DNA of 46,643 nt from Acidobacteriota bacterium (GTDB taxonomy: Bacteria; Acidobacteriota; Thermoanaerobaculia; Thermoanaerobaculales; Sulfomarinibacteraceae): contig JAHECW010000020.1 in the NCBI GenBank assembly GCA_024641545.1, positions 1 through 46,643 on the forward strand, given 5' to 3'. Under the pieces are notes generated by a model, which saw only the letters and a list, made by a program, of their open reading frames with translations, had not been told where the DNA came from and did no database searches. Shown here one piece after another: positions 16,170 through 46,643 of this stretch. The translations under genes and the position numbers were made by a program. Position 1 is the first letter of the stretch. Every line of letters starts with the position of its first letter.

Positions 16170-16222
16170 TTTTATTCGCCTGATTTCTTCGAGCCCCGCT
16201 CGAAGAAATCAGGCGAATAAAA
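16170..16222. repeat. Perfect 25-bp inverted repeat in the parE-parC gap
   Basis: Arms 16170-16194 and 16198-16222 are perfect reverse complements around a 3-nt loop (CCC on the plus strand). On the minus-strand transcript the hairpin forms 12 nt after the parE stop and ends 12 nt before the parC ATG, leaving the parC Shine-Dalgarno free. No U-tract follows on either strand, so it does not look like an intrinsic terminator. A role as mRNA stabiliser, processing site or attenuator is possible. Confidence 0.9.
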
Positions 16223-21030: not shown

Positions 21031-21174
21031 TCTCAGTCTCCGGTCGGCCTGCGCGCGAGGCCCGCGCGCCACAATCGGCCCGCTCGCTCCCCGCGGTGGC
21101 GATCGCGGCGGTGGTGGTGCGGGCGTCCCTCCCGCCGGGAGTCGATGACGGGAGGTCGGTATGAAGTCCGAAGA

Positions 21175-23513: not shown

Positions 23514-23938
23514 CTTCCTTCCGGGAGCACCGGCCTTCCGGGCCGCCTTTGGTGACCCGGCGTCGCGCATTGCGGTGCGGGCGTCTCGCCCGCAGGGAGG
23601 CGTCGCGGTTCGGCACCATCGCGCGCGGGGAGGGCAGCCGTTTCTTACGGCTCCGGCCTTCTGGTCCGCCTTTGGCGGCCCAGCGTCGCACGGGCAGCCC
23701 GGTCACGAGAGGCGGGAGGAAGAGCGGTGACCGCGCTGCCCGCGCACCGGCGGCCTCGTGTCGACCGGGAGAAATGCACGAGGTCGCTTTCGCCGTGGGT
23801 TGCCCGGCGTCGGCATTGTGCGGAGCTTGTCGAGCTGCCGGAGGCTTGTTCCTGCACAATGCCGCGCCCGGCACGCCCCGGTGGGGAATAGTCTTCGGCT
23901 TCCCGGGGCTCTGGACGCTGCCCCGGTCGCCCGCGCCG
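23514..23938. repeat. Mosaic hairpin-repeat array, locus 1
   Basis: The gap between the D-threonine aldolase-like and acyl-CoA synthetase genes holds no gene and is an array of short palindromic modules shared with the loci at 29.5 and 46 kb. In order they are: a hairpin CCGGGCCGCC...GGTGACCCGG (about 23537), TGCGGGCGTC...CGCCCGCA (about 23577), CTGGTCCGCC-TTT-GGCGGCCCAG (about 23661), a 16-bp stem CGGGCAGCCCGGTCAC (23691-23706) with 23727-23742, and a long stem 23801-23821 with 23854-23873 whose core is GGCATTGTGC / GCACAATGCC. All are followed by the shared tail ACGCCCCGGTGGGG. Confidence 0.85.
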
Positions 23939-27213: not shown

Positions 27214-27345
27214 GTCGCAACCACCAAGACACCAAGACACGAAGGATGCACCAAGAACGCGTGGAGATGCTCGGCCATTGGCCGGGCATTTCCACGTCCT
27301 TTGTGATTGCCTTTGAGCCGTTGAGCCTTCGTGGTTGTGGCGTGC
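27214..27345. repeat. Inverted CACGAAG-type intergenic element with central hairpin (copy 2)
   Basis: The left arm (about 27215-27258: ACCACCAAGACACCAAGACA, CGAAGGATGCACCAAGAA) and the right arm (27298-27343: CCTTTGTGATTGCC, TTGAGCCTTCGTGGTTGTGG) are inverse to each other. Between them CGTGGAGATGCTCGGCCA (27260-27277) pairs with 27279-27296 over all 18 positions, two of them G-U. The apex reads CGGCCA-T-TGGCCG. Confidence 0.75.
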
Positions 27346-27393
27346 AGTGAATCGTGGCGGGTTGGGCCGATACTGTCGGACCCTGCGGGTCGC

Positions 27394-29449: not shown

Positions 29450-29703
29450 CCCGGAGCCCCGGCCTTCCCGCGTGCCGAGATCCGTTGTGGGGCCGGCGCC
29501 GCCGCCGGCCTGTCCGGCCTTCCGGGCGGCCCAATGTGGTGCGGGCGTCCCGCGAGGGTTGCCCGGCGTCGGCATTGTGCTCGTGGTTTCAGGTTGCCGG
29601 AGGGGTTGTCGTTGTGCACAATGCCGCGCCCGGCACGCCCCGGTGGGGTTTCGTACTTGGCTTCCCGGGGCTTTGGTCGCGGTAGCTGCCCCGGTCGCGG
29701 GGT
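29450..29703. repeat. Mosaic hairpin-repeat array, locus 2 (fused modules)
   Basis: The gap between the remnant and the end of epmA contains no gene. It carries a GC block (TTGTGGGGCCGGCG, CCGGCCTGTCCGGCCTT; 29487-29530) that recurs at 46382, then TGCGGGCGTCCCGCGAGGG, which is half of the TGCGGGCG hairpin joined directly to the next module. That next module is the long stem 29560-29580 with 29616-29635 (core GGCATTGTGC / GCACAATGCC), with the shared tail ACGCCCCGGTGGGG after it. Confidence 0.8.
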
Positions 29704-30825: not shown

Positions 30826-30950
30826 AAACCACGAAGACTCGAAGACACAAAGAAATCACCACGTCCGACAGACGGGTCGGCCAAAGGCCGACCCGTCTGT
30901 CGCCTCCTTTGTGATGTCCTTCGTGACTTGGTGTCTTCGTGGTCGCGATG
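30826..30950. repeat. Inverted CACGAAG-type element with perfect 17-bp hairpin (copy 3)
   Basis: The left arm 30826-30852 (AAACCACGAAGACTCGAAGA) and the right arm 30903-30950 (CTCCTTTGTGATGTCC, GACTTGGTGTCTTCGTGG) are inverse. In the centre CGACAGACGGGTCGGCC (30866-30882) is perfectly paired with 30886-30902 around AAA. The hairpin apex again contains GGCC. The element separates efp from epmA. Confidence 0.85.
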
Positions 30951-30976
30951 AGCAGTGCGTACGGAGGCTGCGGAGA

Positions 30977-45902: not shown

Positions 45903-45998
45903 CAGGGTTGAACCGCAACGAACGCCAAGACCATCCACCACAAAGACGTGCCATGACACTGCAGTTGAGGGTGGGCCCAGGCCCACCCACCAAAGAAC
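45903..45998. repeat. CACGAAG-type element, single-armed, with GGCC-apex hairpin
   Basis: One arm (CCGCAACGAACGCCAAGACC, ACCACAAAGACG) is followed by GGGTGGGCC (45969-45977) paired with GGCCCACCC (45980-45988) around CA. No clear inverse arm is seen downstream, where the mosaic array begins. Confidence 0.5.
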
Positions 45999-46007
45999 GG
46001 CCGATCA

Positions 46008-46643
46008 TTGTGGCGCGGGCGTCCCGCCCGCAGGATGCTCTGTGTCCTGGCACCATCATGTACTGGCGCGGGCAGGGCAGCCGCTTCCTTCGACTCCGGC
46101 CTTCTGGTCCGCCTTCGGCGTCCCAGCGTCGCGCGATCAGCGTGGTCGGAGAGCAGGACGGGGAGGACTGCGACCACGCTGATCGCACGCCGGCGGCCTG
46201 TTTCGCTGCCGGGAGAGATGCACCGGGAGGTTGTGCCGCGAGGGTTGCCCGGTATGACAATGTGCGGGAGAGGGCGCAGAGCCGGCAGGCTTCTGGGGCA
46301 CATTGTCAAACCCGGCACGCCCCGGTGGGAGGTTTGCCGCTGACCCGGGCGGTGTCGCGGCCGCACCGGGTGGCCAAGGTCCATTGTGGGGCCGGCGCCC
46401 CCGCCGGCCTGTCCGGCCTTGCGGGGGGGCCATTGTGGTGCGGGCGTCCCGCCCGCAGGATGCTCTGTGTCTTGGCACCATCGGGCACCGGCTCGGGCAG
46501 GGCACGCGGCTTCCCGGGGCTCCGGCCTTCTGGTCCGCCTCCGGCGGCCCAGCGTCGCGCGATCAGCGCGGTCGGAGAGCAGAACGGGAAGGGCTGCGAC
46601 CACGCTGATCGCACGCCGGCGGCCTGTTTCGCGGCCGGGAGAG
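46008..46643. repeat. Mosaic hairpin-repeat array, locus 3
   Basis: Module order, left to right: GCGGGCGTCCCGCCCGC (about 46017), CTGGTCCGCC hairpin (about 46104), 16-bp stem GCGATCAGCGTGGTCG (46133-46148 with 46171-46186, perfect), linker CGGCGGCCTGTTTCGC, long stem 46246-46265 with 46298-46317 (core GACAATGTGC / GCACATTGTC), GC block 46382-46435. The order then restarts: TGCGGGCG hairpin (46440), CTGG hairpin (46529), 16-bp stem (46559-46574 with 46597-46612, one mismatch), and the linker up to the edge. The second half is a close copy of the first. Confidence 0.88.

Follow-up and report, generated by a model that had tools for sequence, protein, structure and literature searches.

What is the ordered array of hairpins that closes this contig, and how did it arise? 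The window (the whole stretch of 46,643 nucleotides analysed here) corresponds to contig C19 in an assembly of 310 contigs and 5.38 Mb from an Acidobacteriota bacterium (genome G000). At positions 46007–46643 it contains every module that had been named from the letters alone (the original prediction), including the restart within the locus: a 425-bp unit starts over at 46431, head-to-tail and with 91% identity. Because the array reaches the contig end (46643), its second unit is truncated and the visible length is a minimum. Our main reading is that the array is probably a REP/BIME-like mosaic of GTGG/GTAG-tagged REPs and a separate structured core of ~243 nt, in which REP+core units were amplified head-to-tail by RAYT-type or recombination processes. 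Many related arrays likewise stop at contig ends, where assembly breaks mask their true lengths, and this fragmentation of the assembly at the arrays was counted against the main reading. The features of the window are as follows.

45970–45991, − strand: REP H variant, GGTG-GGTGGGCC-TG-GGCCCACC (22 copies in sampled regions; H-like REPs flank the RAYT gene on contig C194)
46007–46034, + strand: REP A, first copy, ATT-GTGG-c-GCGGGCG-TCC-CGCCCGC-AGG (127 genome copies; an identical palindrome brackets the RAYT gene of genome G041)
46035–46093, + strand: tail of REP A and linker to the core, ending in CTTCCTTCGA (in A-linked copies this stretch is conserved)
46094–46336, + strand: structured core, full copy (B-C-D-E; borders from 56 copies; covariation)
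46104–46126, + strand: core hairpin B (CTGG tc CGCC ttc GGCG tc CCAG), followed by CGTC
46133–46186, + strand: core stem C (the predicted 16-bp stem), arms 46133–46148 and 46171–46186 (15-bp helix with covariation; many unrelated stem sequences, all paired)
46187–46244, + strand: core linker D (conserved GGCGGCCT and GGGAGAGATGCACCGG)
46245–46317, + strand: core long stem E, arms 46245–46265 and 46298–46317 (18 consensus pairs, 96.9% paired)
46337–46382, + strand: linker F, from core to REP G (delimited by sequence)
46383–46409, + strand: REP G (the predicted 'GC block'), ATT-GTGG-GGCCGGCG-CCCC-CGCCGGCC, 5'–3' (32 matches at ≤4 mismatches in sampled regions, many outside arrays)
46410–46431, + strand: leftover 5' end of a core (tgtCCGGCCTTGCGGGGGGGCC), abutting the REP that follows (in 53 of 97 sampled A copies, sequence resembling the 5' part of B lies in front)
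46432–46459, + strand: REP A, second copy, ATT-GTGG-TGCGGGCG-TCC-CGCCCGCA-GG
46520–46643, + strand: core, second copy, truncated at the contig end, with B at 46530–46552, C arms at 46559–46574 and 46597–46612
23568–23596, + strand: REP A, locus 1
23651–23893, + strand: core, locus 1; C arms 23691–23706 and 23727–23742, E arms 23800–23821 and 23854–23877 (absent from the orthologous G001 spacer)
29484–29639, + strand: locus 3, with REP G (29484–29510) and half a REP A (29536–29552) fused to stem E (29559–29580 and 29616–29639), without B, C and D
21114–21136, + strand: lone degenerate REP A

What had been described as four to five hairpin modules is ordered and structured, but it is really one 243-bp element interleaved with REPs: the core, a single ordered unit of ~243 bp, runs from the CTGG hairpin through the 16-bp stem and the linker to the long stem. 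As predicted, the 16-bp stem GCGATCAGCGTGGTCG (46133–46148/46171–46186) has a different sequence yet is paired at 23691–23706/23727–23742. The expectation of one module order throughout fared less well: locus 1 has A-B-C-D-E with no GC block, and the order is broken at locus 3, where G and half of A are joined to stem E. Across loci, order is kept within the core but is not fixed for the whole array. The window also carries two intergenic repeats of other kinds, namely a perfect 25-bp inverted repeat with a 3-nt loop between two genes (16170–16222; TTTTATTCGCCTGATTTCTTCGAGC), AT-rich in a GC-rich genome, and a repeat of the TCCTTTGTGAT...CTTCGTGGT type, not related to the array, whose copies (27215–27349 and 30905–30957) stand in both direct and inverted orientation.

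A, G and the upstream H are REPs, by anatomy and neighbours. Each combines a GTGG or GTAG tag with a 7–8-bp palindrome, a short loop and a high copy number, as expected of REPs (6–13-bp stem, short loop, high copy number). With GTGG allowed as GTAG-like, the tag stands at the palindrome foot in all three (A, ATTGTGG; G, ATTGTGG/ATTGTAG; H, GTAG). REP A reads ATT-GTGG-TGCGGGCG-TCC-CGCCCGCA, with an arm/loop/arm build of 8/3/8 (8/3/8 and 8/2/8 among the three); REP G reads ATT-GTGG and then GGCCGGCGCCCCCGCCGGCC, with GTAG variants (ATTGTAG) elsewhere; and REP H, located upstream at a distance of 15 bp from the array, follows the genome-wide consensus GTAG-GGTGGGCC-TG-GGCCCACC. Pattern scanning located the 127 genome copies of hairpin A (GTGGTGCGGGCGTCCCGCCCGC) at ≤3 mismatches, versus 0 for a backward control, and the window alone holds 5 copies against 0.02 expected; for all module counts not made by pattern scanning, the analysis drew on sampled stretches totalling about 450 kb. 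Among 97 sampled A copies, B-like sequence flanks 46 on both sides and 22 on a single side, with the other 29 lacking it altogether, and many cores stand without REPs; modules therefore do occur alone, a point that the original prediction had raised for checking. The spacings of same-strand A copies cluster at about 108 and 425–426 bp, giving head-to-tail periods of 108 bp and 425 bp. A copies are also found singly and as inverted pairs, and seven opposite-strand pairs, 53–109 bp apart, were present in the sampled stretches. Several REP types, shared inter-REP segments and head-to-tail amplification give the array the mosaic build of BIMEs; the A and G copies of the window all lie on the + strand, and we describe the array as BIME-like rather than filing it as a BIME because REP orientation does not alternate. 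The literature searched held no description of the A palindrome sequence. The exact 26-base core of REP A (ATTGTGGTGCGGGCGTCCCGCCCGCA) also occurs at four loci (L181, L187 (Oligosphaera ethanolica), L183 and L184) in Lentisphaerota and Planctomycetota genomes, which suggests transfer or convergence of REP A.

Locally, the earlier remark that no transposase lies nearby is correct, but the genome does contain RAYT genes: the suggested search for a REP-associated tyrosine transposase elsewhere uncovered one on contig C194 (183 aa; NF047646, 141.9 bits versus a cut-off of 80). This gene has zero Pfam matches, was missed by PF01797 and was found only by alignment search; it is flanked downstream by REPs of the form GTAG-GGTGGGGC-TGG-CCCCACC and upstream by a degenerate one, all H-like. 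In a class-level relative (G041), the RAYT gene has inverted pairs of GGAG-TGCGGGCG-tcc-CGCCCGCA, a palindrome identical to A, on both sides, and the RAYT genes of G001 and G012 are bracketed by TTGTAG-hairpins built as A is. REPs of the array types thus flank candidate cognate RAYTs in two cases, G041 (A palindrome, GGAG tag) and C194 (H-like REPs); no RAYT gene flanked by A was found in the window's own genome, which weighs against the main reading, the nearest with an identical palindrome being that of G041. The array had been set apart from REP/BIME arrays, a distinction contradicted by its two GC-rich hairpins, which are GTGG-tagged REPs, by the RAYT of G041 with its identical palindrome on either flank, and by the C194 RAYT with its GTAG-tagged REPs. 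Transposases of the 205-aa REP type, with the HUH motif MPNHxH and a conserved tyrosine, have a match in 74 of the 100 genomes of relatives, the weaker of which are probably other HUH types. The PF01797 search of the own genome returned only two TIRYT-type tyrosine transposase genes (one of 331 aa and a shortened one), and the GGTGCCA-type inverted repeats on their flanks have no similarity to the modules. A TIRYT-type gene on contig C149 has G-like REPs on a single flank. Across the order, tyrosine transposases of ~330 aa carry 14–34-bp inverted repeats of TIRYT type that start GGTGCCA(G/C)G or GGTACCA(G/C)G (L050 868–1863 (−), L049 1372–2049 (+) and the RAYT loci L155–L199) and are not related to the REPs. 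Core modules were found beside none of the RAYTs or other transposases identified.

The core is a dispersed element of kept folded shape, separate from the REPs. Pieces matching the 425-bp unit number at least 80 genome-wide, and module B has 127 genome copies by pattern scan versus 4 for the control. The ends of the core are sharp in 56 near-complete copies, with and without REPs, and many cores have no adjoining REP, including the G001 copies examined. Cores lie in or beside degenerate CTGCCG/CTGTCG hexamer tracts (L335 2490–2535; flanks of many G000 cores). In an alignment of 51 copies, 96.5% of cells in the B+C+E structure are paired, falling to 27–39% when partners are slid; double changes affect 13 pairs and 147 cells, versus 54 in shuffles (0/500), although cells count sequences rather than events and relatedness inflates their number. 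Stem C is wholly different across genera (GATCAGCGTGGTCG, CCATCGGCGTGGTCG, CGCCGGCACGGTCGC, CATTTCCGCGGGGCCG, CATTTTCCGGAGGGGC and others), with pairing retained and the frame motifs constant, and stem E in G003 copies has likewise been replaced in sequence and is still paired. The frame conserved across genera consists of the unpaired motifs CCGGCCTTCTGG, CCAGCGTCG, GCGGCGGCCT and GGCACGCCCCGG, and CGTC directly follows B in nearly all copies.

Strong covariation together with conserved unpaired frame motifs across genera is what would be expected if the core were primarily a functional structured RNA family, transcribed from many loci, with REPs inserted beside it later. The + strand agrees with this in its 135 G-U pairs versus 24 A-C mispairs, but three columns supply most of this excess, and without them the counts are 37 and 23. 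Compared with shuffled sequences, each strand folds better (z −4.3 and −6.8), and folding energy does not clearly favour either. There are tens of copies per genome, and their orientation to neighbouring genes is inconsistent (+/+ 15, +/− 15, −/− 12, −/+ 8, with genes called by a rough GC3 heuristic), lacking the clear bias of a 3'UTR element or terminator; the core is, moreover, present or absent at an orthologous spacer. We therefore regard a primary RNA function as unlikely. The Rfam 15 search gave no match in the window at gathering score and none to the core up to E = 1 in related loci, and the literature searched contained no description of the core, in keeping with the original statement that no named element has this build. 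Absent from the catalogues searched, the core is the surprising part of the array.

We searched 100 genomes with a covariance model of the B-C part. Copies occur in nine of them (G000 counted), all within one family: at least 39 in G000, 37 in G001, 32 in G002, 30 in G003, 21 in G018, 19 in G008, 8 in G013, 7 in G016 and 1 in G012; the model found no copy in the other 91. In the G002 spacer orthologous to locus 3 of the window (L336 1410–1590), two isolated B-like hairpins occur without stems C and E. Units in G003, G008, G016 and G018 are often inverted pairs, convergent or divergent, and other genera have elements of ~590–625 bp made of two facing core units with inverted CCCCGGCCTTCTGG-like ends (L301 1026–1615; L308 1501–2124; L313 1016–1620).

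Such convergent pairs raise the possibility that the core is a conventional MITE, mobilized by a DDE transposase via TIRs, with the pairs of G003, G018 and G016 (about 590–625 bp, CCCCGGCCTTCTGG ends) as full elements and single cores as halves. The 14–19-bp inverted ends at L301 and L313, and a shorter pair at L228, speak for it; divergent pairs, however, are equally common, and single, sharp-bordered cores predominate in G000 and G001, with no terminal inverted repeats at their borders. Target-site duplications were not seen at cores, as judged by eye, and pairing of the stems is under selection, something a DDE MITE would not require. A MITE origin thus appears improbable.

Orthologous spacers bear on the mobility of the core. 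In G000, the spacer that separates the alanine-racemase-like gene from the AMP-binding gene carries REP A and a core (23568–23893), and the orthologous spacer of G001, from the same genus, has only (GGCAGC)n and no REP or core; both flanking orthologues are 76–78% identical. The difference fits a gain in one lineage, and loss is also possible. The (GGCAGC)n tract, the degenerate CTGCCG-like tracts that flank cores and the 425-bp unit doubled head-to-tail at 91% identity would all suit an ordinary tandem duplication of a neutral intergenic segment, with nothing mobile today. Local duplication, however, accounts neither for dispersal to many unrelated intergenic sites nor for compensated stems, and we consider it very improbable as the explanation of the array.

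For the REP/BIME-like mosaic that we favour, a plausible course of events is the following. A, G and H would be non-autonomous targets of RAYTs (REP-associated tyrosine (HUH) transposases), which may nick a single strand at GTRG beside hairpins. REP A adjoins the 5' palindrome of the core in most copies. Head-to-tail multiplication of REP+core units could then have come about through RAYT-type strand transfer at the foot of the hairpin (GTGG) or through plain unequal recombination; in the former case the repeated units may have grown by rolling replication linked to the RAYT, as a model in PMC2817692 proposes. The core has been gained or lost between genes, being present or absent at an orthologous site, and might move as a folded strand, either RNA or single-stranded DNA; its mobilization by RAYTs is conceivable. 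We tentatively suggest that the core could represent a new class of structure-maintained dispersed element in one Thermoanaerobaculia family, with a conserved frame and replaceable, always-paired stems, spreading in folded single-stranded form, as RNA or ssDNA, whether or not the REP transposase system takes part. Because its stems change wholesale while pairing stays, this family-restricted 243-nt element, which has strong covariation and is absent from the RNA library searched (Rfam), provides a natural experiment on why a dispersed repeat stays folded—single-strand transposition or RNA function.

Among known systems, the REPs here most directly recall the GTAG-tagged REPs (Di Nocera et al. 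2013, PMC3733652), which have a foot tag, a 6–13-bp hairpin and a short loop, reach high copy numbers as singles, inverted dimers and clusters, and include RAYT genes with flanking REPs; the likeness extends to tag, hairpin, copy number, arrangement (singles, inverted dimers and clusters) and RAYT flanks. Most GTAG-20 elements of Opitutus terrae are GTGG-tagged, and GTAG-23 REPs of T. roseum are recorded inside small GC-rich palindromes (PMC3733652), much as A sits here beside CCGGCCTTCCGGGCCG. By contrast, the present array is mostly head-to-tail and coupled to a 243-nt structured element. GTAG repeats are listed for Proteobacteria, Cyanobacteria, Chloroflexi and PVC and not for Acidobacteria (PMC3733652); our analysis shows that REP/RAYT mosaics are present in Acidobacteriota, among them a RAYT with the identical palindrome on both sides. 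CGTC-tagged REPs (Di Nocera et al. 2013), palindromes that end in an unpaired CGTC and are dispersed on their own, may be a parallel to hairpin B, which CGTC directly follows and which has isolated look-alikes in the G002 spacer; B itself belongs to a larger conserved fold. The Acidobacteria TIRYT elements of the same study have counterparts in the tyrosine transposases of this genome, with their GGTGCCA-type inverted repeats, but those TIRs match no array module. BIMEs are mosaics of REP types with inter-REP segments and basic modules joined head-to-tail, and hybrid BIMEs combine REPs of more than one RAYT, with complementary mutations preserving the palindromes (Nunvar et al. 2010, PMC2817692). 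The array shares with these RAYT-linked modular BIMEs its mosaic of REP types, its inter-REP segments and its head-to-tail modules; it differs in that REPs of BIMEs alternate in orientation, whereas A and G in the window all point the same way, and in that the inter-REP segment is here a conserved, covarying element that is also found without REPs.
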